Part shown: in pieces, positions 1,868-64,000 of the stretch
Numbering within the stretch: position 1 is the stretch's first letter
Layout: each line of letters begins with the position of its first letter
Assembly: GCA_035236585.1 (NCBI GenBank)
Contig: CP141126.1
Coordinates: 71,153,414-71,217,413, forward strand
DNA from: Warburgia ugandensis
Lineage: Eukaryota; Streptophyta; Magnoliopsida; Canellales; Canellaceae
DNA: 64,000 nucleotides
Direction of reading: 5' to 3'
Translations under genes and position numbers: made by a program
Notes under the pieces: generated by a model
Database searches by the model: none
What the model was told of the DNA's origin: nothing
What the model saw: only the letters and a program-made list of their open reading frames with translations

Positions 1868-2160
1868 GGTTAGTCTAAACTAAGTACATGGGACTGTGTG
1901 CATAAGATTGTCCCAGATTAGTTGTCATAAAACACTTTAGAAAATGAGTAAAAGAAGGAACTAATCATGTATTATTCAATTAATAAGCTAAAGTAATGAG
2001 GAAGTAGTGAATTTTGGAAAATTCAATTCTCATCATAATATAGGAATTGACCTAGAAATTCAAAAATATTTTAAAATTTTCTCTTTTTAAAAAAATATAA
2101 AAAAATTACTAGAATTTGCTAGAATTCTACATCCTAAACCTAAGGGAAACAGTGTCCTCA
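1868..2160 (-). repeat. 3' non-coding part of Athila/Tat-like element, copy A
   Basis: Matches 39591-39910, which lies 3' of the integrase on the minus strand. The minus strand carries the 'fewer-than-perfect' lineage signature of an ACAATG stretch followed by a G-rich TTTAGGTTTGG-like tract (best seen in copy B near 39890-39910). No coding capacity is visible. Confidence 0.6.
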
Positions 2161-3382
2161 ATGTCTAAAAGATAAGATAAGTGTTAATGAGACACTGAGA
2201 GAGAAAAAAAAAAAGGATGATGAATGGATGTAGATAGCACAAACTCTTAAAAATGTTAGGTTACCTCCTGTGAGCATTCAATTTAACATCTTTAGGTAGA
2301 CACTTCTAAGGTTAGAACCCACTTAATTCTGATATATAGGATCTTTCACAATTGTGGTCTCAACTTCTAGATTAACTAACTATAGGTATGGATTTAAACA
2401 TATCCATTAACTATGGAAGTCTGGCCAGTCCTAGTATCTTCAATCTCGATGGTCCCATATGGGAATACCTCTTTAACAATATAAGGGCCTATCTGTCGAG
2501 TTCTTAGCTTCTCAGACAAGAGATGAAGCTTAGAGTTATAAAGGAGTACCTTTTGGAATGGAATAAAGGATTTTCTTAAAATATTTTAATCGTAAAAAAC
2601 TTTCATCTTGTCCTTCTAGATCCTATTACTATCATAAGCTTCCCACCAAATCTCCTCCAACTCATTAAGTTCGAGCTTGCAATGTGAGCCTACTTCACCT
2701 ATATCAAAATTTAATCTTTTAATTGTTTAGTAGGTCCTATGCTCCAATTCCACAGGCAACTGACAAGCTTTACCATAAATAATACTGTATAGGGACATAC
2801 CAATTGGGGTTTTAAATGCAATGTGATATGGTCAAAGCACATTGGTCAGATGAATATACTGATCCTTACGATCTAGATTAACAATTGTCTATAAAATCGG
2901 TTTAGTAGCCCAATTAGATACTTTGATTGGTCCACTTATTTGTGCGTGATATGGTGTTACAACTTTATGTGTGATAGTATTTTTTATTTATTAATGCTTT
3001 AAAAACATTGTTGCAAAAATGAGTACTGTTATCACAAATGATGGCTCTAGGTGTCCCATATCTGGAAAATATATTTTCTTTTAAGAATTTAATGATGGTT
3101 TTATAACCATTGACCCTACATGGGAAAGAAACATAATCTACAACAACCAAAATGTAAAGGTATCCAAAAGAATGAAGGAATGGCCTCATGAAATTGATTT
3201 CCCAATAGTCAAATATCTCCACTATAAGAATGGATTCTAAAGGCATCATATTCCTACAAGTTATTCCTGCTAATTTTTAGCAGCACTCACATGCCTTAGA
3301 AAGATTATGGTTGTCTCTTAAAAGAGTGGGCTAGTAGAAACCACACTATAAAATTTTTGCAACTATTTTCTTAGTAAAAAAT
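2161..3382 (-). pseudogene. Ty3/Gypsy (Athila/Tat-type) integrase remnant, copy A
   Basis: The minus-strand frame at 2965-3249 (94 codons) reads as the catalytic core of a plant Gypsy integrase: a [19 protein letters not shown] stretch with the first core aspartate in VDY, then FSRYGTPRAIICDNSTHF with the second. Downstream on the minus strand (about 2850-2430) the integrase C-terminal region can be followed in broken frames: the segment that reads [15 protein letters not shown] in this family, then the ELEEI, LLYNS and VKEVFP segments. The zinc-binding end is cut at 3382 by a deletion junction; RT, RNase H and protease are absent. Compared with copy B, A keeps the GTPRAI part intact but has lost the SKWTKAI segment by a small deletion. 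It is an inactive relic. Confidence 0.85.
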
Positions 3383-5580
3383 TGTTAGAACAGTTAGAAA
3401 CCTTAAAGCATTACCAAAACTTATTTGTACTAAATAAGGTGATCTTATCAAAAGTTAAGGTAAGAAAACTTCTCGTGCATTATGCAAGCAATCCACTACC
3501 TCATGAAGCTTCTAAGTAAAGCTCAAATCGTATACAATGGATACTTATATATAAGAGCTATTTTGAAACAAAACAATTCAGAGATGGAGGCTTGCATGAA
3601 GACTTATTTCATTCACTCTTTCTCCTACCATACCAAAAGAGAAAACCACACTAAGGAATACATGATTTTCCCATGCAATGTTGTGCACCCCGCTTGATTC
3701 CACCAGATGAGAGAAATAAGGAAGAGAAAAGGAGAAAATAAAGGAGGTGATGAGAGAAACAATTTATGAAAAATCTACAATCAACAATCATCCTTACTTT
3801 TGAAGTGTTCAAAGGCCAAGATCTATCCTTGTTCATAGATATCCTAAGAAACCAATGAGAACTCACTCAAGCAAGGATGGAGTAATGAGAAATAAGACTA
3901 TAAGGAAGACCAAAACCAGGGCCCATTGCTAGAGATATTTTTGGTGGGCTGCCCACCTTAATTTCAGGGGAGAAAACGTGTTCTCCCTTAGAAAAAGTGT
4001 CTTCCACTCCTTAAACCCCATTTCTTGGAGAATAAATGGTGGGCTGGGAGAGAATAAAGGAGGAAACCTAGAATGGATAAGAAAATCTCAATGAAATCTA
4101 AGCCATCCACTCCAAGGCACGTTGATCCAATGGTTGAGAATAAGTGAGCTACAAAACATGATTCTTTGAACAAGGAAACTTCAAAACAATCACATCCACT
4201 CAATCTTAAGTGAAATATAATCCAATGGTGAAGAAATAAAAAGGAGCTAAAGCTCAACCCTAACCATTATCTCATATTCTATACAAGGAGATTCCACATG
4301 ATCTATTAAGCATAAAGAAGGGGACATCCCTTTTCAAGAGGAGTGTCACTTTATTTAAGATAAAATTTGGGGGAAACTTCCTTAGTCTTGCTATGATATT
4401 CACCTTCTCATCTCCATCATTCAAGGAAGAAAGCTACTCATCCAACCATCCATCCATGCATTTTATCTTATCTTTCCCCATTTCATTCCTTTTTTTCTAT
4501 TCTATCTTTCCCTCTTATCCTCATCTAGATCTCCTTATCTCTTTCCCTTCTAGTCTATCCTCTTTCTTTCTAATCCAAATCCACCTTCCACTCCTTCCAT
4601 AGTCCACCTTCCAAGTCACCTCCTTAGAAAAAATATAAATAAGGGTGAGGTGAAGGGGAGAAACATCTCTTAACTTTTCATAGACCTCAGAGCTATACAC
4701 ATGAGGAACAAAGGGAGGGAGATCACTCTTATCTCTCTTCTACATCTTCACACGTCCAAACCCTAGGAGTACAGGTAAGAGTATTCAGATCCATTCTTAT
4801 GGTGGAATGCCTTGCTAAATGGCTAACACTCACCTTAGATTGACTAACTTCTATCTCCCCTTGCTCTCTCCTACGATAAGATACCCCCTTCCATAGAGTT
4901 TCTAGCTAAGTAGAAGGCCACCTTTATGTTCCTTTTTCTGCTCCATCTCCTCTTTTCTTCTATTAAGGTTGTTGATTTTTAAGAAAAGTAGTTATGCTTC
5001 TCTTTTTTATAGCTTCCCTAAAACTTCATTCTTAGGGATCTTTAGATTTGGATTTGAGCATAAACATTGGGAAAGTGGCATGTTAGGGTGACTATGCTCT
5101 TTGCTTCTCAGCTATGCTTGATGTGCCCAAAATAAGTAATTGGACTCACACATATGAGAAAGGCTTTATTGTAATTTAGTTTAAATTTGGGTTGACAAGA
5201 AGTGTATAGGCTCCTATTGAGTCAGACAATAAGAGATCCTACAGCAGAATTCATTCCTAGTGGAAGAAAGTTTACTTTTATGTTCTTTTCCATTATGTAC
5301 CTCTTTCGTAATCTCATTGTAATTTATTAGTCAATGAACAAAAGTTCTTTACTTTTCTTTCTCTTTACACTCCTTTCTTTATTTCCTAAGCTTAAAGATA
5401 AGCATTAGTAGTGTTAAGATCTTTTTAATTGCTTTTTTAATCTCTTTGGCTAGGTTAAAGTGTAGTAGCTTAGAATTTAATTAAACTCCATCATAATTAG
5501 TGTCTTTGTGGGATCAATCCATATTTGCATTATCTATTCTATATTAGATTTGTGCACTTATGATATAATTAAAATTCACA
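3383..5580 (+). repeat. 5' LTR of plus-strand Athila-like derivative, copy A (left end lost)
   Basis: Runs to ...AAAATTCACA, directly before an Athila-type primer binding site. It has the lineage's typical LTR tail: a TTTGTGGGATCAATCC segment at about 5500, then a GTGCACTTATGATATAATT stretch. Inside are a TATA-like AAATATAAATAAGGG near 4630 and pyrimidine-rich leaders. It is homologous to 45531-47964 in copy B. The left 0.25 kb of the LTR seen in B is missing because of the deletion junction at about 3382. Short frames inside are not genes. Confidence 0.65.
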
Positions 5581-5589
5581 TTGAGTTTT

Positions 5590-5607
5590 TGGCATCATTG
5601 TTGGGGA
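5590..5607 (+). other. Primer binding site, Athila type (degenerate)
   Basis: TGGCATCATTGTTGGGGA at this position resembles the Athila/Tat PBS, TGGCGCCGTTGCCGGGGA, which is complementary to the 3' end of a tRNA (usually given as tRNA-Asp). The four differences are all C-to-T or G-to-A transitions, consistent with decay of methylated DNA. It fixes the plus orientation of the element and the end of its 5' LTR. Confidence 0.75.
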
Positions 5608-6830
5608 CTCGCAATAGAGATTTAGTTAAGAACTAGGTTATACTTTACCTCTAGTCATAGCTTTTAGAACTACATATAGAATACTTGCATTTTGTTTTGC
5701 ATTATTTTCCTTACTCCTGAAAATCTTGATAGTTATTTTCCTTTTTTTTAAGAGAAATTTGGAGGACTTGAAGGAGCTTTTAGGATAGATCACAAATTTT
5801 TTTCTTTTGAGTGAATTTTAGTGAGACTATGCTTGTATTATTTTTTTATCATGATTCAATCAACTAAATGGGTTGTAATAATACAAGTCATGGGTGAACC
5901 ATACTCACTTGGAAGAGGAGGTGGCATGTACGTGGATCCACCCCTATATAAGGAGTCTTTATCAAGGACCCCGATATGAGCTTTTCTAAACAAACATTTT
6001 CTAGCATAGGTTGTGCATAATAATTTAGTTGCATTTCCATATAGTGAGAACTGATTAATTGTTGCAATCTAGGGTTTTGCATTAGGTTTACTACTTTTCT
6101 TACATTACAGGGCACATCTAAGGTGAGTATATGTTGATGGAATTGTTGCAGGAAAGCTTAGTTGATTAGTAATGGTACTCACCCCTACAGGATCAAGGGT
6201 GGATTTCACCACTATCCCTTGGCCCACCAAGATTAATAATCACCTTATGTGCAACCCAAGCCTTAACAAACTAACTAAAATCAATTTAGAAGAGACCTAT
6301 AGTAGCATACATGCTCATAGGGCCCTCTTGGAAAAAGGAAAATTACTATCACTCTAGTGGCCCTTATCTAATTAGCTATGTTAGTATTTAAGCAACTAGC
6401 TCTGCCAACATATCCAATGACTAAGATTACCTATGGCTAACAAGGAGGGTGTGAAGCAATTGATTATGATCAAAATCTAACATGTAAGTAGTAGGACAAG
6501 TTTGAAAGAGAGGAGTAGGTAATTATGTAAAAAATAATATAAACTCCACTCTCCTTAATAAAATAAAGAAAAATCAAACTTTCAACTTGTTTGCCATAGG
6601 TGTAGACTTATTATGTGTGTCGTTTCCTTGTGCACCATTTTGCATATGGGTTATATTATCTAGTTTATGACTCTATAGACTAGCCAAAAAAGCACTCTTT
6701 CATTGTATATGATGAATATCTTTCCTTGTATACAAAGTTGAGTCAAGTAAGATAAAAGTTACATAATCAAGTAAATCCAATTACCTCTACAAAAAAATAT
6801 GGCCAAAAAAGTAGGGGATAAAGTCACTTT
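5608..6830 (+). repeat. Leader region of the Athila-like derivative, copy A
   Basis: Untranslated or fully degenerate leader between PBS and gag remnant, homologous to 47993-49200. The frames at 6172-6357 (plus) and 5888-6115 (minus) are not preserved in copy B and match no family I know. Confidence 0.55.
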
Positions 6831-7475
6831 CTTACTATTTTACTTCATAGCCCCTTCATTATGAAAATATGTATGAAACAGGGGCTACTTCTAATCTGTC
6901 CAATGCACTAGATAGATTGGTAGACATGATGGATGAAGTAAATAGTCTATTTATTACATTGGATGTTTTTGTGCTAGCTAGAGAATTATCGAGGAAACCT
7001 CAGTATGAGGATTGTTTTACCTATTCTAATCCAGCATATCCTACTACTTTGTGCTCGTTAAGCTTCATGTTTCTTGAATACTTTTATTAGCAAATGAATG
7101 CAAATGCAATGAGTGCATTCATAGACCTTAGTGATAATTTTTATTCTGAGACTTACTATCTAGGATGGTCTTAGCATCCTAATCAAACACGTTCTCAAAA
7201 TTTTCAAGGAAGACCATTTGGGGTTCCCCTTAATCACACTTTCCATAGTGATTCAAATTCATAGCAACTTGAGACACAAGAAGAGTTTTGTCCACAACAA
7301 AGGGAGCAATCATTAGAAGAGATCTTGAGTTTATTTATGCAAAGTGCTCTCAAATTCCAAAATTCTGTAAAATAAACTATGTAGACCACTCGCAATGTAT
7401 TCCAAAGTTGAAGTTCCAAATGGATCAAATAAATACTAAATTTTTAAAAAGGAAAAAGGAAACCAACCAAGTTTA
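6831..7475 (+). pseudogene. Athila-like gag remnant, copy A
   Basis: The frame at 6869-7090, continued with shifts and stops to about 7470, has the layout of the C-terminal part of Athila/Tat gag. It shows an ETYY...HPNQT...NFQGRP motif (7150-7230, counterpart of the family's YNPGWRNHPNF motif), then SLEEILSLFMQSALKF (about 7310-7350), then a short helical segment with QMDQI (about 7417-7430). No CCHC zinc knuckle is visible. In-frame stops at 7088 and 7172, and others in the last third, show that it is non-functional. The same remnant lies at 49200-49850 in copy B. Confidence 0.6.
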
Positions 7476-7684
7476 GGATATGCAATGGCCATCAAGAACT
7501 ATGTAGGGATAACAATAATATCATTCTATGATTATCTTTATGACATAAAGATCAAGTGACTACATTATACCTACCATCCTCCAGTAATAATCCTCTTGAG
7601 GCATGTCTTGATCATTCTAATTTTGATTCTAACATAAACACATTCATTTATGATGATACTAATACTTCTCAATGGAGAGCCAAA

Positions 7685-8130
7685 TTAAGACACCTTTCCA
7701 TTACCTGAGATTCCATTCGAGCCATATAGTGAAGAACCACCTACTTTGGACCTACAACCTTTACCAAATAATTCACCATGTGAGAGTTTAGATTTACTTA
7801 AAAATTTACTTGTGACTACAAAATAGGAAGGAGTGTCAATTGATGTTCTGTCCCAACACCAACTAACTCCCATGTGTACACTAGAGGTTATTAAGGGTAT
7901 AAGTCCTATTATTTCTTTACATCAAGAAAAAATAAAAAATGAACAACCTTTGAGGGGATGCAAAGCTAGTTTAACCCTACCTATCAGAACAATGTAAGGG
8001 AGGAGGAATATTGTCAAATTTTTTATTTTGACATTATCTTTCCTCAATTTGATCAAACCTAGGCAAAGTCACTCAAGTTGGTCCCCAAAAGTTTAGATTC
8101 CTGGTGGTCTTTCATGTCATTATCTTCTCA
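7685..8130 (+). pseudogene. Pol fragment: protease-RT linker and start of RT, copy A
   Basis: In plus frames this segment carries the piece that in Athila/Tat pol lies between protease and RT: FEPYSEE...LDLQPLP, SLDLLKNLLV, IDVLSQHQL, IKGISPIISLHQ and NEQPLR, followed by a decayed counterpart of the LNP...VVRKE...LLD-GIIYPI segment (7965-8060). The protease that should precede it is missing, and RT catalytic motifs do not follow. Copy B (50067-50330 and onward) is better preserved. It is a relic of an internally deleted element. Confidence 0.65.
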
Positions 8131-9110
8131 CCACCATACATCTCCTAGTAAAAAAGGAAAATTTGACTATTATGAGATTCTAAAATTGAGTGATTATTCC
8201 AGGAACTTGTTCATAGTTAGCTTAGGTTTAGGTGTGATAGATTAGTTAATTAGTTTAGGTTAAGTGTTATTATTTACAATTGCATTTAGCATTTCAATGT
8301 ACATTATTTAGCATATCAATGGTCACATCAACAGATCAATGCACCATCTCTAGCATGTAGGTACTATCATTCTTACCCATCTCTCTCCAGGTAGTTATTT
8401 CATTTGTCCATGCTTTTATAAAAAATTGGGGATAGTGTTTTATTTAAGTCTACGGGTAGGATATGTCAAGTTTGATGTGTTTAAAGTCTATTTAATCCTT
8501 TTTGAGTCATTTCTTTATTTCAAAAAAAATTAAAAACTTTATCATAAGTTCTTTTACAAGTATGAGAATTCAGATTTCCTAAATATTTAATCTATAATTT
8601 CAACATTAGAATATTAATATATTTATAAATATTTAGTTTACTATTTTATCGTTTTCTAAAGTATTGCATAAAAAAATTATACTTAAAATATTCATTTCAC
8701 AAAATAGCCATATATATATATATATATATATTAAGTTAAAAAGAAAATATAACTTAGATCTTGAAGAAGATAAGTAGAGACTTATAACTCATGCGAGATT
8801 ATAGCCATTCTTTCTTTTTGAGGGTTATATACAACTTCAATTTTTTTGTCAACAGACATAATTTTCTACTTCGTTTCATTATTCTTGAATAAAAGAAAAT
8901 TTTCTCAGATAAATAAAGAACTTCTAATAAAAGTTTTGCAATGTTAATGGGTGTCATTTTTGAAAGCCCGTACAAGACTATAACTAGTTTACTACGGGTA
9001 ACCTATGGCCTTAAAGGCTTTCTGCATACTATAAATGCAAACGATAACACTTGCAAAAGTAATTAGGGTATTTTTTTTAGATTTCTTATTTTATATTTTG
9101 TAGCTCAAAG
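8131..9110 (+). repeat. 3' region of the Athila-like derivative, copy A
   Basis: Contains the lineage's TTGGGGATAGTG...TTTAAGTCTACGGG tract (8426-8456), comparable to the ACAATG/TTTAAG-TTGGGGG 3' region of Athila elements, and a (TA)n run at 8710-8731. No coding. I could not match this block to the 5' LTR by eye, so a 3' LTR is not demonstrated. It is homologous to 50471-52436. Confidence 0.45.
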
Positions 9111-10779
9111 ACTAGCAAAAATTGAACTTATAGAAAATGAATTATTTTTTATATTAATGAGAAAAAAAATTTATATGCTTTTAGTGGTTAAAACTAGATC
9201 ATTCTACTTCCCAAATTAGTTTGAAAATGAAATATAATACATCAAATAAATCAAGGAGTCCATAACTTACATAACAAAAATATGATGACAACATATCATA
9301 TTGAACATCTCATTTGAAACCATGGTCAATAAAAAATTTATAAAATGAAATACATTGATGTAGATATCATGAATAAATCTAGTTGTAATACTTCACAAGT
9401 TCAAAACATACAGTGTATGTCATATCAATAAAAATCCATAATATTTATAAAACATGATGCATACTACCATGGGCTCAAAACCATAGTAAACTTGTAAATA
9501 TGAGAAAATCTCAACATCAGTAGGTCATTCCAACCACACATGGGCCCACATCAATCCTATCATGAGTACTCATATCATGATAATACTGGCATCATCACCT
9601 CAAGATGGCTCAGGCAGCATCAACCTATCCTAACAAAACACATGGATTTTGTTCAAGATGGAGACTAATGGGTCTTTTCACTATCATAGAATGGGCATTA
9701 ATTGTGGATCCGAATGGAAATGGAGGGGAGAAAGGGAAATAAGGGAAATATTTACATCTATAAAGCAATTCTAAGTGTACATCATCGTCCGAATTGGTGA
9801 AATTGTTAGTTTTTCAATGACATCATCACCCCAGGATGGCTCAAGCTCCATCAGCCTATCAAAAAACAAAACACATGGACTCTATTTGAGATGGAGACTA
9901 GTGGGACTGTTCACTATCATGGAGCCATGATTAATGGTGGATCCAAATCGAAATGGAGGGCAGAACGAAAAATAGGGGAAATATATACCTCTATGAAGCG
10001 TTTCTAAGTGTACATCATTATTCTAATTGCTGAAGTTGTTAGTTTTTCAACAACAATCCCATTCCATCATTGATATTCCACTGATCAATGTGAAACTAAA
10101 GGGCTTATGATTTTTTTGAGCAAAGTGAAGGGGATGAAAGACTCAGATCTTTGAACTTGGCCTTACTTTTCTCTGTATGCTCCTCTGTTAGATGTCCCCT
10201 CTTCATAGTTGCCAAATTCTTCTCCTTTGCTAGTATGCACGTGGATAGAGTTACAAGGTGATTCTTGCCTTTCCTTCTTTCTCCTCCTCCTCCTCCTTCT
10301 TCTTGATCCCCTTCTTCCATTTTACTCTTCCTTTTAAAAATTATATCGGCTGACTTAAGTCAACTGACATTGTCATTTTTTCTCATTATTTTATTATATA
10401 TGGTAAAATATGATTAAATCTTAGTATTAATAGATGTATGCTTGATTTTAGACATTGTTAAAGATATCATTGCCAACATGCCTTAGTCTGACAATTCTCT
10501 CTTTCGAGTTTCACAAATGGGCCCATAAGGTGAAATTAGTATATTATCCCAAGCTCTTGATATTTGAAAATTTTTATTCAAACTTTGATTTCAATGTCTT
10601 TAGTGTAGTTTGAAAGATTCTTCTTACTACAGTCTAGATATTGATGTTTCGAGAGTCAACTTTGTGTCTTTCAAATGTTTATTTTCACGAAACCCATGAC
10701 CCCAAAGTCCATATTGGCTTTGTATTCAAATATTGGATGAGAATTATATGGAATGGAATTTAGGAATTAGAGTATTACA
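9111..10779 (-). repeat. 3' LTR of minimal-core minus-strand LTR element, copy A (truncated)
   Basis: Homologous to the LTR that starts at 11058. For example, the block around 9190-9260 matches 11755-11830, and both carry 'tagtttgaaa-tgaaa' and 'catcaaataaatcaag' segments. The right end ...GTATTACA (minus strand TGTAATAC) abuts a polypurine tract. About 0.6 kb at its left end is missing; the missing part exists in copy B at 44895-45271. A 1.6 kb block present in the partner LTR (about 21365-23005) is absent here, and a 231-bp unit is duplicated instead. The frame at 10105-10320 is a pyrimidine-rich artefact. Confidence 0.75.
9591..10052. repeat. 231-bp tandem duplication inside the LTR
   Basis: Two units begin with ATCATCACC at 9591 and 9822 and run through the same order: a GATGGCTCA motif, a CCTATC...AACAAAACACATGG segment, GAGACTA-TGGG, TGTACATCAT and TTAGTTTTTCAA. 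Copy B has the same two units (52871 and about 53075) with small deletions, so the doubling predates the large duplication. Confidence 0.8.
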
Positions 10780-11057
10780 TCCTTTCCCCCTCAATGAAAT
10801 TTCTTAACTACTTATGACTTCACACTAAGTCATTGTTCATAGGTAACATGAACCTAATTAAGATATGATTCTCATTTCCCTATATTCAAGTGTTTGCTTA
10901 TCTCCCAAATCAGTATTTGTTTTACATTCAATAGCATTTCCCTATATGAGTTATCTTTGTAACTTAGATAAGTAACTAACTCTAACTTATAAGTCTTATT
11001 ATGAGTTCCGACAAGTAGGACTAGTTGTGAAAGGATGAACTAAGCTCTGATACCAAA
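10780..11057 (-). mobile_element. Core of minimal LTR element: PPT, about 250 bp, PBS (copy A)
   Basis: Read on the minus strand, a PBS occupies 11044-11057 (TTTGGTATCAGAGC, matching the tRNA-iMet type TGGTATCAGAGC), directly inside an LTR that ends at 11058. A polypurine tract occupies 10780-10792 (GAGGGGGAAAGGA), directly before the other LTR starting TGTAATAC. Between them are only about 250 bp without a reading frame. The counterpart in copy B is 54029-54271. PBS and PPT in the right order and orientation show that this is an LTR element and not two unrelated repeats. Either the inner domain was deleted or the element is non-autonomous. Confidence 0.75.
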
Positions 11058-12022
11058 TATAACAACCTAGGTTTTTGAATGACCATTTTGCAAATCAATT
11101 TGAAAAGTTTGGCCCCAAGTTTTGAAACCAAATTGACAAAACAAACAGCAAAAAATTCATTCTATGAAAAGACTTGACAAAAGTCCCCAGTGTCATTTTA
11201 AAACACAAATTTACCAGTAAAATGATCATTTCATTTCTACCAAAAATTTGGTAGAGTCTGCTCTATTTTTTGAATAATCCATACTTTTTCATGCTATGCA
11301 GTATCCCTACTAAACCACATTATAATGTATAAAACAATACGAGAGACGCCATCTCCACTCAATGATATTTAAACACATAATTGAAAACCATGCATTTATT
11401 AAATTAAAGACACATAGAAGACTTAACTAGTTTAACCAGAATCTATCTAGTCACAACCACATGTTCATAATTACAATTTCATGTCTAGACATTCAATTGA
11501 ATGTAAGTCATAATATAATAATTTAAACAACAACTTTGAAATAAATAGAACTAAATCCATAACCCACTTAGTTAGTGTTAGTTTGATCTCTCCTACAGCT
11601 CCTTGCTCTATATCCTACGTTACTTCATATTGTATTCCATCAAATATGATATATTGTAAATAATTACAACATCTTAGCAAGAAATGCTTGTGCAGGTGGA
11701 ATAAGATTATATTTATAACAAATAAATTATTTTTATATAATAAGAATCATTTTCTATATGCTTTCCATGATTAAAACAATATCATTCTATTTCCAAAATT
11801 AGTTTGAAACCAAAACATAATGCATCAAATAAATCAAGTCCATAACTCACATAATTGAGAATAGGATGAATACATATCATTTGAAACCATGGTTAGTAAC
11901 AAATTCATAAAATGAAATACATTTATGTGGATATCATGAACAGATCCAGTTGTAATACTTCACAAGTTCAAAATTTGTAATGCATATCATATCAATAAAA
12001 ATCTATATTATTTATAACACAT
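11058..12022 (-). repeat. 5' LTR of minimal-core element, copy A, first part
   Basis: Begins with TATAACAACC on the plus strand (inverse of an LTR end; the expected TGTAACAACC has one G-to-A change) next to the PBS at 11044-11057. It is interrupted at 12022 by insertion of the 9.15 kb element and resumes at 21178. The uninterrupted version is 54272-57975 in copy B. Confidence 0.75.
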
Positions 12023-12372
12023 TGTAATGCCCAAGCAATTTATGCTATTTTGGACATTCTATGGGAAATAAACTGTGTTAAATATTTTACTTTATTTAAA
12101 ATACTAAACAAATGAATTTTTGATGAAGCTTGGTACCATTAGATTTTACTCAAAAAATGGAATCCAACGCCTCAAAGAACGCTGAAAACGGACTTCGTAT
12201 GAAGAAGTTACGGCCGTTTAAAGATCAGGGGCAATTCTGTAATTTAAACTAAAAAGCGAAAAACACAAAAAACGCAGGGGCCGTTTCGATAACGGCACCC
12301 CATCATCTTCTTCCTCTAGATTTCTCCAGAAACCCTAGTTTCCAGAGAAATCTACCACTGCCATAGCAAGGC

Positions 12373-12379
12373 TATAAAA
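12373..12379 (+). promoter_or_regulatory. Probable TATA box in 5' LTR
   Basis: TATAAAA in GGCTATAAAAAGCCCC, followed by a C-rich stretch with CCTCACTAAAA about 30 bases downstream, a plausible transcription start. The identical box is kept in the 3' LTR at 18730-18736. Confidence 0.6.
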
Positions 12380-13401: not shown

Positions 13402-13609
13402 GAGGTAGGTGCTCTATCGCTACTAGAGTTTTTAAAAGAACCCATGATGTTTTGAAGTAGGTGCTCTATCCCTACTAGACTTTTAAAAAGAACCCATGAT
13501 GTTTTGAAGTAGGTGCTCTATCCCTACTAGACTTTTTAAAAGAACCCATTATGTTTTGATGTAGGTGCTCTATCACTACTAGACTTTTAAAAAGATCCAT
13601 GATTGTTTT
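13402..13609. repeat. Four 52-bp tandem repeats in 5' LTR
   Basis: Units start at 13402, 13454, 13506 and 13558, each with GTAGGTGCTCTATC, CTACTAGA and a TTTTAAAA-like core followed by AACCCATGATGTTTT. The spacing is exactly 52 bp. The same array with the same unit number is in the 3' LTR, so it existed in the parent element. Confidence 0.92.
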
Positions 13610-14832: not shown

Positions 14833-14846
14833 TTGATATCAGAGCC
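14833..14846 (+). other. Primer binding site, tRNA-iMet type
   Basis: TTGATATCAGAGCC lies one base after the LTR end (14831) and differs by one base from the plant tRNA-iMet type TGGTATCAGAGCC. Confidence 0.85.
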
Positions 14847-47964: not shown

Positions 47965-47974
47965 CAAATGTTTT

Positions 47975-49850: not shown

Positions 49851-50039
49851 AAGCCCATCAATAACTATGCAAGGATAACAATAATATCATACTCAGATTA
49901 TCTTTATGAGACAGAGAAGCTAGTGACTACATTATCCCTATTGCCCTCCAGCAATAATCCTCTTGAGGCATGTCTCAATCATTCTAATTTTGATTCTGAC
50001 ATAAATGTATTCATTTATGATGATATTAACACTTCTTAA

Positions 50040-52436: not shown

Positions 52437-54028
52437 AAATAAATTATTCTTTATATACTAAGAATAATTTTTTATATGCTTTCGATGCTTAAAAATAGAT
52501 CATTCTACTTCTCAAATTAGTTTGAAAATGAAACATAATATGTCAAATAAATCAAGGAGTCCATAACTTGCATAAAAGAAAAATGATGATAACATATCAT
52601 TGTAGAACATCTCATTTGAAAACATGGTCAATAACAAATTTTTAAAATGAAATACATTGATGTAGATATGATGAATAAATCCAGTTGTAATACTTCACAA
52701 GTTCAAAACTTATAGTGTATGTCATATTAATAAAAATCCATAATATTTATAAAACATGCTAAATACTAACGTGAGCTCAAAATCTTAGTAAACTCACAAA
52801 TATAATAAAATCTGACCATCAGTGGGTCATCCCAATCACACATGGGCACACATATCATGGTAATACTAGCATCATCATCCTATCATAACAAAACACATGG
52901 AATCTATTTGAGATGAAGACTAGTGGGTCTGTTCATTATCATGGAGCCACTGTTGATGGTGGATTCAAATGAAATGAAGGGGAGAAAGGAAGATAGGTGA
53001 AACATTTATCTCTATGAAGAGGTTCTAAGTACATATCATCCTACGAATTGGTGAAATTATTAGTTTATCAATGACATCATTAGCCTAGTATGGCTCAAGC
53101 ACCATCAACTTATCATTAAACAAAACACATGGTCTTTATTTGAAATGGAGACTAGTGGGTCTATTTAGTTCCATGGAACCATGGTTAATGGTGGACCAAA
53201 TAGAAATGGGGGGGCGAACAAAAAATTGGGGAAATATTTACCTCTATGAAGCATTTCTACATGTATGACATTATTTGTAATTGGTGAAATCGTTAATTTT
53301 TCTACGACAGTCCCAATCCATCTTTGATTTTACTTGATCAATGTGAAACTAAAGGGCTTTTGATTGTTTTGAGCTAATGAGGGGAATGAATGACTTAGAT
53401 CTTTGATCTTGGCCTTGTTTTTCTCTGTATGCACTTATGTCAAATGTCCCCTCTTTAGAGTTGCCAGATTCTTCTCCTTTGCCGACATGCATGTGGATAG
53501 AGTTACAAGGTGATACCTGCCTTTCCTTCCTTCTCCTTCTCCTTTTTCTTCTTCTCTCCCCTTCTTTCACTTTACTCTTCTTTCTAATAACTATATCGGC
53601 TGCCTTAAGTCCACTAACATTGTCATTTATTTCTTATTATTTTATTATATATATTAAATATGATTAAATCTTAGTATTAATAGATGTATGATTGATTGTA
53701 GACATTGTTAAAAATATCATTGCCGACATGCCTTAGTCTGACAATTATCTCTTTTGAGTTTCACGAATGGGCCCATAAGGTGAAATTAGTAAATTACCCC
53801 TAAGTCATGATATTTCAACATTTTTATTGGGACTTTGATTTCATGTCTTTAGTGTAGTGAAAAGATTCTTCTTACTACAGTCTAGATATTGATGTTTCAA
53901 GAGTCAACTTTGTGTCTTTCAAAGGTTTATCTTCATGAAACCTAAGACCTAAAAGTCCATATTGGCTTTGTATTCAAATATTGGATGAGAATTGTATGGA
54001 ATGGAATTTAGGAATTAGGGGTATTACA
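52437..54028 (-). repeat. 3' LTR of minimal-core element, copy B (main part)
   Basis: Matches 9120-10779 and the partner LTR. It ends ...GGTATTACA next to the PPT (54029-54041). The tandem duplication described at 9591-10052 is at about 52871-53300 here. Frames 53349-53570 and 53437-53667 are the pyrimidine-rich stretch read on both strands. Confidence 0.75.
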
Positions 54029-54271
54029 TCCTTTCCCCCTCAAAGAAATTTCTGGACTACTTATGACTTCACACTAAGTCATTGTCCATAAGTAATATGA
54101 ACTTGATTTAGATATGATTCTCATTTCCCTTTGTTCTAGTCTTTGCTTTATTTAGCTCATTCTCTACTAATCTCACAAATCTATATTTGTTTTACATTTA
54201 ATAGCATTTCCCTATATGAGTTATCTCTAAAGGACTGGTTGTGAAAGGATGAACTAAACTCTAATACCAAC
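54029..54271 (-). mobile_element. Core of minimal LTR element: PPT, about 215 bp, PBS (copy B)
   Basis: PPT 54029-54041 (minus GAGGGGGAAAGGA). PBS at about 54258-54270, minus TTGGTATTAGAGTTTAG, where two C-to-T changes weaken the iMet match seen in copy A. Total interior 243 bp, no frame. Confidence 0.75.
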
Positions 54272-57200
54272 TATAACAACCCAAGTTTATGAATGACTTT
54301 TTGGAAAATCTTTTTGAAAAGTTTGGCCCCAAGTTTTGAAAATAAAATTAGAAAACAAATAGAAAAAAATCATTATATGAAAAGACTTTGCAAAATTCCC
54401 AGTGTCATTTTAAAACATAAATTTAACAGTAAAATGATCATTTCACTTCTAACAAAAATTTTGTAGTCACCTCTATTTTTTGAATAATCCCTTTTTTTTT
54501 TTGCATGTGATGCGGAATCGCTAATAAACCTCATTATAATGTATAAAACAATATGAGAAACTCCATCTCCACTCAATCATATTTAAACACATATTTGAAA
54601 ACAAAACATTTATCAAATGAAAGGCATATATAAGACTTAACTAGTTTAACTAGAATCTATCTAGTCACATCCACATGTCCATAATTACAATTTTATGTCC
54701 AAACATTCAAATGAATGTAAGTCATAATATAATAATTTATACAACAACTCTAAAATAAATAGACCTAAATCTATAATCCACTTAGACAATGTTAGTTTGA
54801 TCTCTCCTACAACTCTTCACTATATATCCTACATTACTTCTTGTTCTATTCCTTCAAATCAGATATATTGTAAATCATTACAATATCTTAAAAAGCAGTG
54901 GTTATGTAGGTGGAATAGAATTATATTTATAAAAATAAATAAATTATTTTTATATAATAAGAATCATTTTCTATATGCATTCGGTGGTTAAAACTATATC
55001 ATTCTATTTCCTAAATTAGTTTGAAACTGAAACATAATGCATCAAATAAATCAAGGAATCCATAACTCACATAATTGAGAATGAGATGAATACATATCAT
55101 TTGAAACCATGGTTAATAACAAATTCATAAAATGAAATTCATTCATGTGGATATCATGAATAGATCCAGGGTTAATACTTCACAAGTTCAAATTTTGTAA
55201 TGCATGGCATATCAATAAAAATCTATAATATTTATAAAACATGCTGGATAATTACAAGTTCAAAACCATAAAAACTTGTAAATATCATAAAATCTTAACA
55301 TCAGTGGGATCATCCCACTCACATATGGGCCCACATCAATCTGGTCATGAGTTCTCATACCATAACAATATTACTATCATCACACCAGGATAGCTCAGGT
55401 ACCATTAGCCTATCATAAAACAAAAAACATGGACTGCTATGCTGTAGCTTCCATTCTACTTGGATCAACTATAATGTTCTTGATAACACCAACTATGATG
55501 GACAAGTAATCATCCTGCTTGGGGAGAAACAAATCCCATAGTTTGGCCTTTCCATGATTCCCACACTCAAGTTTTAGCCACTCTTTAGGTAAGGTTTCTA
55601 TCATATCATAATTTTAGAGGTCGGGTGGCTAACCCTACAACCCTCCTAGCATAGCATCTACCAGGCAACCCACCTGTATAAAACAAATACATGAAAATAA
55701 CATATGCAAAGGATACAAGTCCATTTACCCTAAATGTAAATCAATGGTCTCATTTCATCATTCACAATCCAAGCAGGGATAAAACATGCATTTCACATAT
55801 AATAACATATGAACTTCAAATACAAGTCATGCTTGAATTTCACAGATGGAATGAAATGGAGTCAAGTGTAAATAGTTTCCAAGTACCTTTCATAAAATCA
55901 CTAAAAGTATTATCAGAGATGATAAACTTAGATAATTATTCCATCAAATACTATTTCATTAAAGTTCATAATCATGCTCTACATAATATTACAATGCATG
56001 TCCAAACAAATGAAAATTCAATTGTTGAAAAAATTTATCAAAATCATTTTTTCAATCATAAACCAATTATATTAGAAAAATAAGCAATCTTAAACCATTT
56101 ACCTTTGATCAGAAGGAAAAAATTTACAAATGCATGTAGATACCTAATTTGTGAGTTTAATCACAATCAAACACACGCCTGTGCAAACACACATGTACAC
56201 TTACTCAAATCTTATAGTCTAGGATGTAGTCTAGATTGATTTCTGGCACCAATCAGTACATGACAGTGGTATGCACCCATTAATTATCAATGGTTGCTGG
56301 ATTGTTGATGTGATGATCAATGGTTGCTGGATTATCTGATATACACCCATTGATTATCAATCAACATCCTAGACCATTCATAATATATGTAATTACCACT
56401 CCACAAAACTACAAGTTATTCTTTTCACAGATAAGTAACATTAACCCCTTGATCATTGATCAGATTAAATTTTGGACTATTGAATTTAATATTTACTAAT
56501 AGTCATATATGTTTAAAATTTGTTTACTCAGTCCAATGGTCGAGTCATGTTTCATAACATGAAAACAATAATCTACAGATTCAATGTCTATGTATCAAAT
56601 AGTGATCGGATGGTTCATAGTCATCAAACAATCAATTTGCATGGTTAACTATTAGATCAAGGAGTCAGTGGCTAATTTTAGAAATCAAGCATTATAGAAT
56701 GCTATATCTATCATAAAATGATCTAATTGTATTTACTTATTCATGAAATTCCTAGGAATTCTAAGATTTATTGTGTGCATTAAACCCAATTTAAAATTTG
56801 AGATAAATCAATGAAGATCAGTAGTGATCTTACCTATGATAGCTTAAATCCATGTTAATAGATCACTAGAAGCATCAAATTACTATTGGATTATCCTGAC
56901 ATGACTCCATCGTGGCCATCCATCTTTGCCTGCTTTAGGTCCTAGTCACTACTTCTTTGATTGAATACAAGTTTGGCAGGTTTTGTTTATGGCATCAATA
57001 GGAACAAGGTAAATGATCAGATTTTAGTTTTGAGATGTCCTCTTTTCTATGTTAGATGGAGATCGATGGCTCTATTCATTGTCACAACCATTAATGGTGG
57101 ATTTGTAGAAAAATGCTAGGGGGGTTGAAGAAAAGGAAAATAGGGGAGTTTCTTACCTCTATGAAGCATTTCTAAGTGTATGTCAACATCAAAATTGGTG

Positions 57201-57975
57201 AAAATCATCAATCATTGCATGACAAACCCAATTTAGTATTTTTCCTAATCTATTGTTGATTTTCCACCTATCAACATGAAACCAAAGGGCTTTTGATTGT
57301 TTTGAGCTAATGAAGGGGATGAACAACTTAGATCTCTGATCTAGGCCCTATTTTTCTCTATGTGTACATGTGTCTAACATTCCTCTTCATAGTTGGCAGC
57401 TTCTTCTCCATGCTACCATGCATGTGAAAGAGTTGAAGGGGAGTCTTGCCTTTCCTTCTTTCTTCTTCTTCTTCTTCTCCTCCGCCTCCTTCTTCCTCTT
57501 TTCTCTTCCTTTTAATAATTGTATCAGCCAACTTAAGTCAGCTGATATTGTTATTTATTTCTTATTATTTTATATTTTTGTTTATTATTTTATTTATTAT
57601 ATGCATTTTATAGATTATATGATTAAATCTTGTTATTAATATGTCTTCTTGATTTTAGGAATTTTTAAAAATATCATTGCCAACATGCCTTAGTCTACCA
57701 ATTATCTCTTTTGAGTTCACAAATGGTCCCATAAGGTAAAATTATTAAATTACCTCTAGCCCGTGATATTCAAACTTTTTCATTCGGACTTCAATTTTAG
57801 TATTTTTAGTGTCTTTGAAAAGATATTTAGGGTGCATTCTAGATATTAATGTTTTAAGAGTCAACTATGTATCTTTCATAAGTTTATTTCCATGAAACCC
57901 AAAACCCACAAGTCAATATTTTCTTTTTATTCAAATATTGGTTGAGAATCAAACTTAGGAATTAGGGGTATTATA
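54272..57975 (-). repeat. Full-length 5' LTR of minimal-core element, copy B
   Basis: Runs from TATAACAACCC (inverse of ...GGGTTGTTATA) to ...GGGGTATTATA (inverse of TATAATACCCC; expected TGTAATAC). 3704 bp, uninterrupted, and the best template for the family in this window. The insertion site of the 9.15 kb element in copy A corresponds to about 55240. The 130-codon frame at 55691-56083 is not kept in A. Confidence 0.75.
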
Positions 57976-58386
57976 ATAATATCCTGAATTTGAGGAGAAG
58001 GAGATGTATAAAAAAATAAAAGAAAAAGTGACAAATTATCTCAAAAAGGAGATGTGCAAGAAGTTAAAGTAGGATTTAATAAGGGAGTTCCATAATATGA
58101 AAGGTTATAGTCAAGAGTTAACTACGATTCTCCTACTAAAGAAGATCAGTTGAGTTACTTGCACCCTTAAGAGAGAAAAATCCAACAAAGGAAGTATATA
58201 TGTATACATATTTACTTTTTTATTGTTTAATTATTTGTCATATCTCATTCATTCTTAAGTATCTAGTATTTTTTATTTACAGATGAGACTATTTTAATAG
58301 AAGCCCACTATATTTTTACTATCCAAGAGGCCATTGGATATCATGTCACTTAGCTAGAACAATATGTCATTCCCCAAAAATCATAG
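57976..58386. other. Degenerate shared sequence right of the LTR
   Basis: Matches 23345-23815 of copy A, with a 130-base gap near 58285. It contains the once-coding-looking piece described there (KKLKVGFNKG-like at about 58050-58085). No intact frame. Confidence 0.4.
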
Positions 58387-60352
58387 TGTTAAGTGTTTAA
58401 TTTTGGCAAAAAGACCCCTCATTTAGCATTAATTAGACTATCTAACTCATCAATTTGATGATTTTTAGATAATCTATGAATTTTAGCTCAAATTGACCAT
58501 CCAACAGTAAATTGTCAAAATTGGTCAATTGAGCTAAGTGGATGCTGAATGTACTGTTTAGATAACTCTAACCTAGTCTTTGGCCTTGCAGATTAACTAA
58601 AGGAGGGTTGGATTGCTCAGATTGATGTTCAACTGTGCAGATCGATCAAAAGAGGAATGGGTGGATTAGATTAAATTTTGACAGTGTAGATCATCTTGTA
58701 GATCAATTAGGCAAGAGTTTCTTAAAGAAAGAGGAATTCTAATAAGGAGAGGAAACATTGATGAGAATGGAAGTTGGGAGGAAGCTTCCTAGTAGGAAAC
58801 TAGATCTTAAAGATAAGGAGAGGAGAATTAAGAAGGGGGAAAATCTATAAGAGGGGAGAGCCGTAGGAGAGTTTGGAAGTCTTTTAGTTTTAGCTTTTCT
58901 TCTTTGTAATCTGTTTTGATTCATCATTTTTTCTTTGATTCCCAGTCTTTCCTCTGTTCCTATAAGTATTCTTCTTCTCCATACCTCTCTTTCCCTTATC
59001 TGCCATGCTCCTTTTCTTCCATTGCATGGGACCCATCTGCTCAAGCCAGTCGCACAACCCAGGATTTGTCTCCACCCCCGTCTTTTTTCTTTTCCATTGT
59101 TAGTTTCCAATAAGAAACCGAGTTCCATCCTTGATCGCACCCATCACCCACCTCCCATCCATCTCCTTTCATTATCTTCAACACACCTATCTCTACCACT
59201 CCCCCTCCCATCTCTCAGCTTTCTCTTCTCACTTACCAAGTACTGCCTAGATTTCCTCCACAACCCAAACTTCTTCCCATCTTCTACTCTTCACTAGATC
59301 CAGTCCCCTAATCTAGCACAGATAGCCCAGATCACCATGCTCTCCTTCTCTGACGCACTAAGATCCTCCACCTTCTCATGTTCCTGATCTCCACCTATCC
59401 ACTGGTCACACGTCCAGAAACTAGGTGGCATTTTTCTTTTCTACTGATCCAGTACCCAACGATGCCACAGCACTGGCCAACCAACAATTCATCGAATTCT
59501 CCAAGAAATCCAGAGCCGTACGATGCCCATCCTTCCAGATCATCACTGACCCTTGCCTCCATTGCGCCAGACACACCCCAAGCTCACCTGCTTGTTACGG
59601 CCAGCCATCCCATTTTCATGAAAAATTTCATTTATGCCCTTAGTAGAAAAATTAAAATCTCATTCGAATCTCTATTTCTTTTTATTTTTATTTTTCTTTA
59701 TCTAGTTTTTGTATTATTCATGTTCTCCTTATTCTTAGATAATTCTATAAATTAGATTTGGTTTATTTAAGCATAATCGAATCAATGGTTTAGCTTAAAT
59801 CAAAAGGGGAACATCAATTTCCAATCTATTTCACATCCGAATTTCAATCAAATTTCAAATCTAGTCTATAGGGCAATTTAAAGCACTTTTAATTTTCCTT
59901 ATCTTTAATCTAAGAATCTAAAATTAGATCTAAGCTATTAAATCTCAAAATTCTTATCTAGGCTAGATCTCTTAGAATTTTTAGAATCTACCTAATCCCT
60001 CTGTTGGATCATTGATCAAAAGTGTCAAAAACATGTAGATGAAGGTTGATCATGATTTAGGGGACCAGATCTGTGGAATTTGAAGATAAGCTATCTAGGG
60101 AAGTGAAAATTTCTTATTTTTTTAATTAAAATTTTATTTTCCTCTGGAATTAGATCTCTGTAATTTCACTACTAAATCGAATCTGAAGTCTGATTTCTTT
60201 TTGTAAATTTTTATCAATTAATTTTAATTTTTAAATAATTAAATTTTATTAAAAACTCCAATTTCTAAAAGCACGTCCTTGTGAGATTGACCTGTACTTC
60301 CATTAACTATACCACAATAGCCCGTGCACTTACGAAAAACATCAACACACAG
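58382..60352 (+). mobile_element. Solo LTR of Tat-like family, present only in copy B
   Basis: LTR 58387-60347 (1961 bp), TGTTAAGTGTTTAATTTT...ACATCAACA, flanked by CATAG (58382-58386) and CACAG (60348-60352), a target duplication with one mismatch. Copy A shows the empty site near 23815-23835 (CCTCAAACTCAAAGGTATAT). The tail has GTCCTTGTGAGATTGACC and CCTGTACTTCC...CCCGTGCACTTACG. Leader and polypyrimidine block at 58850-59650. Frames 58739-59140, 58890-59113, 58935-59297, 59378-59755 and 59425-59643 are LTR leader sequence. Confidence 0.82.
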
Positions 60353-61776
60353 GTATATATATTGTCATACCACCAACTTCAATAACAATTTTTAGAAACC
60401 TCAGTTTAATTATTTATTATTTGCATTTAGTGTTAATCAAAAGAAACAATATGTGTCATCGAGGTCAACTTCATGCTTACCAGCATGAATGAAATTTTTT
60501 ATATTGATTCATAATTTTTGCAACTTTGTAACAATAGTCTAATATTGACTAGAAGTTCCATCTAATACCCTCTAACCTTGAGGACCCTTTACAAGTTCAT
60601 TAATAAAGATAAGGTAATCAACTCTAGATGGATAGAGCTTGGAGTGCTTGGTGATAAAGGAGTTGAAATGTCATTCATGAGAGAGGACTTCAAAAAAGCA
60701 TTGGATGAACTCAAACATATGAGCATTGTCTCTTATATCGGGTAAGCAAATATCTACTTTAATAAGAATCCTTGACATTACATATGAATTAGTAATGGTA
60801 ATTAATAAGTATTCCGTTTTTATAGATACATGTATGATAAAATTAACAATGTTGTTTTACAGGCAATGGTGCTAGCCCGAATTTCATGGCAAGGTTTATT
60901 CTCAACTAGATCTCAAAGAGATATGATGTAACTAGTTGAATTTGTATTAAAAGTCAACTATGACTAATCTACTTCCACCACACTAATACATATGTTTATA
61001 TGTAATAGTTTATTGATTCCTTGACTTGACATTATGATCAGTAATACAAAATGTCTTCATTTAAATGTTGAATGTGGATATGTGTTATATTTTTCATACG
61101 CTTAAAGTATATGTGTGGCTTGTTTATTTGAGTGAGGGAATTGTGTAGTACTTTGTCTATGTGAATGAGGGAATGTTAAAGTTTGGAAGTAAGGAAGAAG
61201 CTTGGTAGGTGTAAATCTTTACTTCATAAGACTGTAGAGATGTTAGAGTGTGGAAATAAATCAGTGTATATTTAGAAGTGTGTGGGTGCAATGGATAATA
61301 CCTTATGGTTTATGATTGCAAAATTTTTCCCTTTTATGACTTTGAATTTTCTATGTTAAATGTGGATGTTTAATGATTATGATTTATTTATTTGAATGAG
61401 AGGATGCTTATTTGAAATACAATTATGATTTGTTTATTTGAATGAGGGGCTATTCAAGTTAGAAAGTAAGAAAGAAACTTATGGTAAATGTAAGTCTTTA
61501 CTTTATAAGAATTCGAAGATGTTGTAGAGTGAAAGTAAATGGATGTATAAAGTGAATGTAAGTCTATGAATTGTTTATATTGAATGTAGATGTTGGAAGT
61601 GTGGATGAATAATTTTGTAAAGAGGGTATTGATGAATATCGCAATAGTAGAATGGTTATTATATACTATCAATAAACAAGGTTCTACAGCTTTTTGAGAA
61701 TACATATTTTTTAAAGGCAGTTATTAGAAGGTGTCTTTGTTTTAACTTTTTCAAGACTACTATTTCAAAAATCCAT
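60353..61776. repeat. Non-coding block with imperfect tandem duplication, copy B
   Basis: Counterpart of 23836-24382 plus 25662-26612. Includes the FINKDKVINSRW-like piece (60595-60640) and two units around 61090 and 61390. Copy A's block 24383-25661 is absent at about 60840. No intact gene; the minus frame 61454-61705 is low-complexity. Confidence 0.5.
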
Positions 61777-63446
61777 TGTTAAGTGTTCAATTTTGACTAA
61801 AATATCCTTAATTTAACGTTTAATTAGATCATCTAACTGATCAATTTTGTAATTTTAGATTATATGTTAATTTTTACTCAATTTGATCAGCCAACCATTG
61901 ATTTATAAAATTTAATAGTCAAATGATCATCAGAGCTAGTCAGATGATTAAATATTTGTTTTGATGTTTCTATTTTAGTCCTATGTTTTGCAGATCAATT
62001 GGATTAGGAATTGGATGGTTTAGATAGAGCTGATAGATACCAAATCATCTTCATGCCACAAGAGGCGCATGAGAAAATTATTAAGGAATTCTTTTTATTG
62101 AGAAAGGAAAAACCAAAGGAATGTTGAAGAGGAAGGAAAAACCATAGTCGAAGTGGAACCTATGGAATGATGGGAAGAACAAATCTAGAAAAGAAACCAA
62201 ATTTAGAAAGCCTGAATGGGAAGAAGAAAGAGGAAATCAAGAGGAGGAAGGATACTATAAATAGCACCAAGTAGGAAAAGGTTGGGGGAGGACAGAAGTA
62301 GAACTATTTTCCATTGTGCAGCTAGTTGAGCTCCACTATGGAAAAACCCAAACTGTAAAGCTTCATCACAATAGCACGGGAAACTAGTTCTCTCTCTAGA
62401 TTACGGTAGAAGAAAACCTGAAAGAGACCCATAGAATGAAGAAGAAAACCAAAAAGGGAGACTGAATCATTTCTCATCACTAACCATTCTCTTGTTCCCT
62501 ATTCTCTTTTCCTCCTTGTTCACCTCCTTTGTCTCATCCATCATTGTCTTCTTCCTTTGCTTCTCATTACCGTATTCCCCTATTTTTAAGTATGATTTTA
62601 ATGGTTTTTTCCACCTAATTTTCCCCATATTTTCCACAGATTTTTCCTTGATCTCTTCCTTCTACAAGTTTTATTTGTTTCATTCAAAACCTAATTTGGG
62701 TTTTGTAAAAAATCCCACTCCTTTCCCATGTACATCATCTTTCCTTCAGCTTCTCTTCTTTGTTCGGTTAAAAGAAGGAAGTTTTAAGAAATTTTCCAGT
62801 TTTGCTCTTGGAGTCCTATTTTAAATCCATTTGAGTCTCAGTTTTGTCTTTTCCCCTATTTTGTATTATTCTTATCCCTACTTTATTTTATCCCTTTCTT
62901 GTTTTGTTCTCAAATTAGTCTAGGAATTAATTAATCCAATCCCATTTGATTAAAGCTTAATCGAATAAATAATTTAGCATTAACCAACAGGATTACTTTA
63001 GTCCCTGATATTCTTTTAATCATATTTCCAAATAATTTTTAGATCTTCATCTGAGGACAAATCTTAGCTGATCTATCAGTTTTGATCCTCATTTTGTCAT
63101 CCAAAAATTTGATCTAAGCTGTCCAAATCTAAATTTCTTTTCTTAGTCTAAATTACCAAATTTTTGGGAGATCTATTTTATTCAGTCAGAGAAATTAGTG
63201 AAGGCTGAATTGAGCAAGGAAAGTTAATTTTTTAGTTGTAGATTTATTTATTTTTTCTTTTTAGTTTAGAATTTTTTACTTTTCATTAATTCAATCATCT
63301 AAATTTTGATTTCATTATTATTTAATTTATAGATAATTAAATTTTATTCAAACTCTATTTTTAATAAGTTGAGTCTCTGTGGGATTGACCTGTACTTGCA
63401 TAAGTTATATAACAATAGCCCATGAACTTGCGGAAAACAACCAACA
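61777..63446 (+). repeat. LTR of Tat-like Gypsy family, shared by both copies (copy B)
   Basis: Starts TGTTAAGTGTTCAATTTTG and ends AACCAACA; 1670 bp, about 200 bp longer than its counterpart at 26613-28076, because it keeps a purine-rich block at about 62090-62450. Tail with GTCTCTGTGGGATTGACCTG. The frame 62492-62824 is leader sequence. Confidence 0.7.
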
Positions 63447-63755
63447 GCTATCTTTAAAAGCAATTTTTAAAGAAGGTTTTCTTAAACCATCTTAAAAAAT
63501 ACTTAAAAAGTGAATTATTAAGACAATTTCTAAAACCATCTTAAAAATTAATTTTTAAAGATGATTTTTGAACCGTCTTAGAAATTTAAGACCACTTTGA
63601 AAACCATCTTATTAGTTTAACTTTCTAAAATGGGTGGCTGGAAGACGATTTTGACACCATGTTAGATATATGCTTTCAATCGTCTTAAAAATACTCCAAT
63701 TAAGTAATGCTAGTTCTTTACTCCAATTTAATAGTGCTAGTTCTTTCTTGTATAT
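63447..63755. repeat. Block of inverted AAACCATCTT-like motifs, copy B
   Basis: Same hairpin-prone repeat block as 28077-28390, ending TGCTAGTTCTTTCTTGTATATC. It directly follows the LTR in both copies. Confidence 0.45.
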
Positions 63756-64000
63756 CAAAATTTTCATTTTTGAAACTTGTCTTTGTTTTCAAGTACAAAT
63801 TTGCAACAAATTTTAAACTTGGATTTCAGCCCAATTCACCCCCTCTTTGGACCCAAGATATCTAACGAGAAAATAAGCAAATACATGAGAAAGGGCCGGC
63901 TTTGGAGGGAGTCTAAACCAGGTGGTCATTTGTAGCTATAAATCGGAATATCCGAATCAAAGCTTGGATAAACGGAGGAAACAAATTAAACATAACGCTA
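63756..64000 (-). other. 3' flank of a possible second copy of the host gene
   Basis: Matches 28391-28635, which ends 217 bases before the stop codon of the gene at 28853-29413. The match is still running at the window edge, so a paralogue may start just outside. Confidence 0.6.

Follow-up and report, generated by a model that had tools for sequence, protein, structure and literature searches.

An old head-to-tail duplication in Warburgia ugandensis with its joint placed inside a retroelement end

How did two copies of a block of retroelement debris and a small gene come to lie head to tail in the genome of Warburgia ugandensis, and where does one copy end and the next begin? These questions are raised by a stretch of 64,000 nucleotides (the window; assembly GCA_035236585.1, contig CP141126.1, C1:71153414-71217413, forward strand). 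A preliminary description of it had proposed a direct duplication with two possible histories: a plain tandem duplication with a new joint at 39590/39591, or an event in which a minus-strand retroelement runs unbroken across 39590 and the new or later-deleted junction lies at 1867/1868. We analysed the window together with 60 kb of its left and 140 kb of its right flank, using window coordinates extended in both directions (negative numbers lie to the left), and searched the 1.12-Gb genome of 14 contigs. The window carries an old head-to-tail duplication with a unit of ~32 to 37 kb, containing old mobile-element debris and a decayed gene. From sequence comparison, we place the duplication joint at ~38930, inside the long terminal repeat (LTR)-like end of a minus-strand retroelement, with the bounds 38931-39590.

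Two collinear copies

The duplicated segment comprises the following parts.

1868..38930, plus strand: copy A of the duplicated segment, its own later insertions included (blastn chain, flank alignment and max-chi scan)
39591..64000, plus strand: the part of copy B within the window, which continues outside to ~70790

When bases 1-39590 were compared with 39591-64000 by blastn, 40 matches were obtained, 35 on the plus strand and five on the minus strand, the latter being short or weak (the best 426 bp, 67%). Fifteen plus-strand matches form an ordered chain from 1870/39591 to 28635/64000, with 16.2 kb of alignment at 83.3% identity. The left edge of copy A, at 1868-1870/39591, is visible in the raw sequence. 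At the left end the copies are offset by 37.7 kb, in agreement with the preliminary description, and along the chain the offset ranges from 34.1 to 43.3 kb through insertions. The right limit given there, 28635/64000, proved to be the stop of the window and not the end of the duplication. In the flank comparison, in which only matches above 300 bits were listed, the diagonal extends to 35529/70673 and then, past a 3.3-kb insertion in copy A, to 38930/~70790. Self-comparison of the window and its right flank therefore gives one collinear diagonal, not scattered family-level matches, and the direct duplication is borne out by the diagonal of 1868-28635 against 39591-64000.

In a segment-by-segment global alignment of A and B to the right end, the identity was 86.7% over 21,808 sites, with a Kimura two-parameter distance (K2P) of 0.148, and the values per 300-base window ranged from 75.9 to 95.7%. 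Outside a more similar patch, identities of 85.9% (14,959 sites) and 85.1% (3,297 sites) were found. The landmarks of the adjacent copies share order and orientation along the 15-piece plus-strand chain and its rightward extension, and the right end of one copy is joined to the left end of the next within 38931-39590, which is the arrangement of a tandem duplication. It is an old one, because each copy has insertions of its own for which the other shows the empty site, and because the array has no run of N.

The duplication joint and the probably chimeric middle element

Related minus-strand elements lie at the outer ends of the array (E_left and E_right) and between the copies (E_mid).

1868..3381, minus strand: E_left, the left-end element of copy A, a retroelement 3' part with the integrase region, LTR end missing (82-85% to 39591-41074)
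38826..38930, minus strand: outer end of the LTR-like end of E_mid (83-85% to 70682-70787; 64.9-73.6% to family members X1-X4)
38931..39590, minus strand: interval bound to contain the duplication joint (max-chi scan; switch at its left edge, ~38930)
39591..43418, minus strand: inner part of E_mid (RNase H at 41418-41660; absent from copy A from 41075 on)

E_right, with which copy B ends on the right, starts at ~70682. It belongs to the same family as E_left, which starts at 1868, and is 58.8% identical to it over 444 sites; related elements in direct orientation, as looked for under non-allelic homologous recombination (NAHR), are thus present at both outer ends. Aligned to E_right, E_mid scores 153 and E_left 162, against at most 67 for 20 shuffles. 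E_mid starts at ~38826; with the 3.28-kb insertion of copy A disregarded, this is the equivalent point in the flank to the right of that copy, and the LTR-like end occupies the same host-flank position in A and B.

The host flank and first LTR bases of E_mid and E_right are 84.2% identical over 316 sites (host-flank part alone, 83.8% over 210 sites). Past 38930, the identity falls to 59.0% over 1113 sites. The max-chi cut fell after 38930 in three alignments, two of them identical, and 0 of 1000 permutations gave a cut as strong. About 45 bases that are nearly unchanged between the two elements end at this switch (by eye). From 39591, E_mid is 85.0% identical to E_left (554 sites), 59.1% to E_right and 51.2-57.3% to X1-X4, the other family members compared, which come from 264 kb and include one present twice. 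At 39051-39420, E_mid is closer to X1 (69-72%) than to E_right (45-63%); the interval 38931-39590 has lost its counterpart in E_left, and hence the comparison with it, through the truncation at 1867/1868. From the identity switches at 38930 and 39591, therefore, E_mid appears to begin as E_right and to continue as E_left. The fall from 84.2% to 59.0% against E_right, with 85.0% to E_left from 39591, is what a chimeric element formed by NAHR would give, and the most plausible reading of E_mid is that unequal exchange between two related elements of the same orientation left it chimeric.

The element is indeed unbroken across 39590, as the preliminary description had claimed: its identity to E_right shows no drop there (61.3% before, 64.6% after). 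That continuity had been taken to favour the second history. Because the element reads as chimeric, however, its continuity across 39590 is no argument against a plain tandem duplication. Neither of the two positions proposed earlier would be the joint made by the duplication, which is placed 660 bases to the left of 39590.

Nine fragments were scanned for retroelement domains, and two of them matched whereas seven did not. E_mid contains an RNase H domain at 41418-41660 (PF17917, E 2.6e-18, above the Pfam cut-off), and E_left gave a weak match to the integrase core at 2968-3276 (PF00665, E 4.8e-4, below the curated cut-off). On the coding strand the RNase H domain would be followed by the candidate integrase, for which the weak match was found in the copy A equivalent. 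Such an order is that of Ty3/Gypsy elements.

A later truncation at 1867/1868

To the left of copy A lies a repeat that is found at many places in the genome.

620..1858, plus strand: first ~1.24 kb of a multi-copy repeat, right-truncated, forming the joint 1867/1868 (genome matches)

The repeat has an LTR-like start, TGTAACA, and is a candidate LTR only. It has 41 matches in its own genome, 39 of which begin at query positions 618-622; the other two are the window itself and one 180-base piece. In all seven loci compared (L002-L008), the similarity between loci extends past the point at which the repeat is truncated in the window. The extension is in one piece of ~2.7 kb, nearly to the fetched limit, in five of them (L003, L004, L005, L007 and L008), and shows a length difference in L002 and L006. 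Since the repeat extends further in 7/7 other loci, a deletion or like event has joined it to E_left, whose outer end was lost in the process. The suggestion that 1867/1868 is a later-deleted junction is borne out by this result, and the same position is excluded as the duplication joint. The boundary 39590/39591 would then be a mere shadow of this truncation, the place where the match between A and B stops.

Later insertions and deletions

The copies differ by several insertions or extra stretches.

12023..21171, plus strand: LTR retroelement that entered copy A, framed by direct repeats at 12023-14830 and 18364-21171 (copy B has the empty site at ~55239-55242)
24387..25657, no strand assigned: 1.27-kb insertion in copy A (ATAAAAT repeats on its flanks; empty site in copy B)
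35545..38824, no strand assigned: ~3.28-kb insertion in copy A (starts with TGTAACA and lies between two copies of ATATCA; copy B lacks it)
58379..60343, no strand assigned: additional 1.97 kb of copy B that copy A does not have (A/B alignment)

The direct repeats of the 9.15-kb LTR retroelement are 93.2% alike, with a K2P of 0.072 versus 0.158-0.168 for the duplication. Given this lower distance and the empty site in copy B, the element is younger than the duplication. Both of its long repeats contain 52-base tandem repeats (13399-13612 and 19740-19953). The interior of the minus-strand element from 41075 on, 4453 bp, has no counterpart in copy A, and we read this as a deletion in A. Each of these differences in length seems to have arisen after the duplication, in either A or B. 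Within the part of copy B that is missing from A, two 132-base tandem copies, 96% alike, were observed at 44612-44875.

Gene copies and the high-identity patch

A small gene lies within the duplicated segment, surrounded by the patch in which A and B are more similar.

28850..29476, minus strand: small gene of copy A, an open frame with an in-frame stop
64223-64846, right of the window: gene copy of copy B, open for 207 codons
Near -26.4 kb, left of the window: gene copy of a partial third copy, copy 0, with frames shifted in its upstream part (by eye)
27900..31800, no strand assigned: high-identity patch around the gene, A/B 92.0% versus ~85.5% outside, non-coding DNA included

The preliminary description had raised the possibility of a gene copy outside the window and called for a search to the right of 64000, and such a copy was found just there, with the frame 64223-64846. 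The region that holds it is 94% identical to 28640-29520 of copy A, and its frame is read partly in another frame than that of copy A (by eye). The genome search with the gene gave seven matches: the three copies of the array, a piece of copy B 55 bases long and, at 67-69% identity, three distant matches on C1 and C3. None of three gene pieces reached the Pfam cut-off (DUF7620, E 0.012, for one of them), and neither did the one sequence searched against NCBIfam or the one paralogue searched against Pfam. Against PDB, the gene gave one weak match (E 0.0052) to chain sc-CC-8-58, by its name a designed coiled coil. Over 381 bases, the genes of A and B have 20 differences, nine of them silent versus ~5.2 expected; any constraint on the gene appears to be at most weak and past. 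The gene is decaying, and at least copy A is broken. The ~160 bases upstream of the gene (29466-29625) match copy B twice in a row, on both sides of ~65000, and this stretch of copy B seems to be a local tandem duplication.

The third gene copy, more diverged and 26 kb left of the window, was beyond the view of the preliminary description. Copy 0 consists of the pieces -26,497 to -24,857 and -2025 to -331, with ~22.8 kb between them, which match 28635-32085 of A and 64000-67376 of B. Its left flank has 39 matches to the A block and two to the B block, those to A being mostly on the inserted LTR element and in scattered order; no A/B repeat block was seen beside copy 0 in this comparison of the left flank with the A and B blocks. 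To the left of -26,497 there is weak similarity, scoring 100 and 110, where the maxima of 8 shuffles each were 76 and 82. The match of copy 0 stops at -331 and is followed from ~-328 by a stretch whose LTR-like start is TGTAACA, which points to an insertion at this place as well.

At 28.6-31.8 kb, copy 0 is 84.9% identical to A and 85.2% to B, with 92.0% between A and B. The distances among the three copies are nearly the same at 31.3-31.6 kb (A-B 86.6%, A-0 89.0%, B-0 89.5%). The value of 92.0% between A and B suggests gene conversion between them, or selection. Between an early split of copy 0 and A/B conversion over the gene patch, we favour a mixture of both. Copy 0 would have separated before A and B, and the deletion at 1867/1868 may also have taken the right end of copy 0, which is adjacent.

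Origin of the array

Unequal exchange inside two related retroelements, followed by insertions and by the deletion at 1867/1868, is in our judgement the probable explanation of the array. The ancestral segment would have held an element E1 on the minus strand, the old repeat block, the small gene with its flank and, oriented like E1, a related element E2. Unequal exchange would have joined E2, ~105 bases into its LTR-like end, to E1 at a nearly equal position, giving the order E1, copy A, E2/E1 chimera, copy B, E2. Afterwards, insertions would have entered copies A and B, and the deletion at 1867/1868 would have removed the end of E1. Two collinear copies, the sharp switch of kinship in E_mid, the truncation at 1867/1868 and the separate later insertions are all observed.

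Several points weigh against this explanation. At 39541-39600, past the switch, E_mid and E_right are 80.0% identical (60 sites) versus 47.5-70.0% for X1-X4, and the same patch reached 90% over 42 bases in a separate comparison. We take this similarity as a conserved motif, though a single clean switch predicts otherwise. E_mid lacks ~12 bases at the switch that other members have (by eye), and E_right has a 46-base local duplication near it. The parental elements are now ~59% alike, which is low for ordinary homologous recombination, and the long high-identity stretch expected of NAHR at the exchange point is not seen between them today; presumably E_left and E_right were more alike when the exchange took place. 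We infer that the exchange went through homology or a short conserved motif and not through chance end-joining. With the ~12 missing bases and the 46-base duplication, microhomology or end-joining would explain the switch equally well. In view also of the ~45 shared bases that end there, we consider a microhomology-guided event at the joint just as likely as ordinary recombination.

A tandem duplication with its joint at 39590/39591, the first of the two histories proposed earlier, has in its favour that the left-end similarity of A and B starts exactly there and that the 39541-39600 patch is 80% identical to E_right, but E_mid aligns with E_right on both sides of 39590 and the sharp drop is at 38930. 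We rejected this position, where no drop in identity occurs, and regard such a history as highly unlikely. It is also conceivable that E_mid is ancestral and unbroken and that E_right was later replaced, from ~70796, by another member of the family. The best match of E_right from 70796 on is another member at 181 kb, and the 46-base duplication lies near the switch in E_right; this reading, however, requires an extra event and leaves the tandem joint unexplained, and E_mid is likewise anomalous at the switch. Moreover, E_right looks to be of one piece, because its first hundred bases are also nearer the 181-kb member than X1 (73.9% versus 67.5%, a small difference). We consider the replacement unlikely.

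Independent double nesting of the same repeat families, with family-level resemblance only, draws some support from the fact that parts of the segment are repeats, the 620-1858 repeat with its many genome matches among them. It is scarcely credible in view of the 15 ordered pieces on one diagonal, the range of identity in 300-base windows and the shared boundaries, and the diagonal includes the DNA around a gene that has only three close copies in the genome search. Least credible is an assembly artefact, that is, one locus or two haplotypes placed end to end. An apparent case of this kind exists further right, where copies 98.5% alike flank a gap of exactly 500 N, but the copies studied here are ~14% diverged, have separate insertions and show no run of N among all three, there being none from the left end of the analysed flank to 146,865. 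Assembly doubling was rejected on these grounds.

Unequal exchange between retroelements is an event of a known kind and an ordinary route of gene duplication in genomes, and how duplications arise is understood no differently after this locus. What the locus offers is an old duplication with a joint that is still locatable to within some tens of bases, together with a case in which a later deletion could make a false joint resemble the real one. If the exchange is confirmed, strongly diverged retroelement ends may act as exchange points in a plant. A wider reading, in which strongly diverged retroelement ends exchanged and built a gene array, and gene conversion later made A and B more alike in the ~2-4 kb that surround the gene, is possible, although we hold it to be doubtful. 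If true, an array made by retroelements would be evolving in concert locally even as its gene decays.

Comparison with known systems

In yeast, as outlined in an excerpt of PMC4232551, Ty1 elements ~50 kb apart gave rise to duplications by unequal crossing-over (Zhang et al. 2013, cited there). There, as proposed here, a segment of tens of kb with genes in it lies between elements whose exchange duplicates it; the Warburgia locus, by contrast, is natural, old and eroded, and its elements are ~59% alike today. The excerpt also attributes the yeast CUP1 tandem arrays to unequal non-homologous recombination. Those too are tandem gene arrays, and the Warburgia joint may likewise have involved little homology, but here both of its sides are matching positions of related elements. 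Maize P1-wr, according to an excerpt of PMC2686159, consists of eleven 12-kb repeats, almost perfect copies of one another, with chimeric genes flanking the array. It resembles the present locus in being a plant tandem gene array whose history was reconstructed from sequence, in its chimeric edges and in a rearrangement by transposition in its neighbourhood, whereas here there are three diverged copies and a chimeric retroelement end.

Neighbouring observations

Outside the window, ~18.9 kb is repeated at 98.5% identity around the gap 146866-147365 (128065-146865 and 147366-166262, loci L021-L025), and both copies end at this gap of exactly 500 N. This repeat looks like unmerged overlapping contig ends, perhaps of two haplotypes, and not like a biological duplication. 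In the left flank, direct repeats of ~2.5 kb, 91% alike, are located at -45246 to -42768 and -39133 to -36670. They partly match the long repeats of the 12023-21171 element in reverse orientation, and the pair is probably another LTR element.

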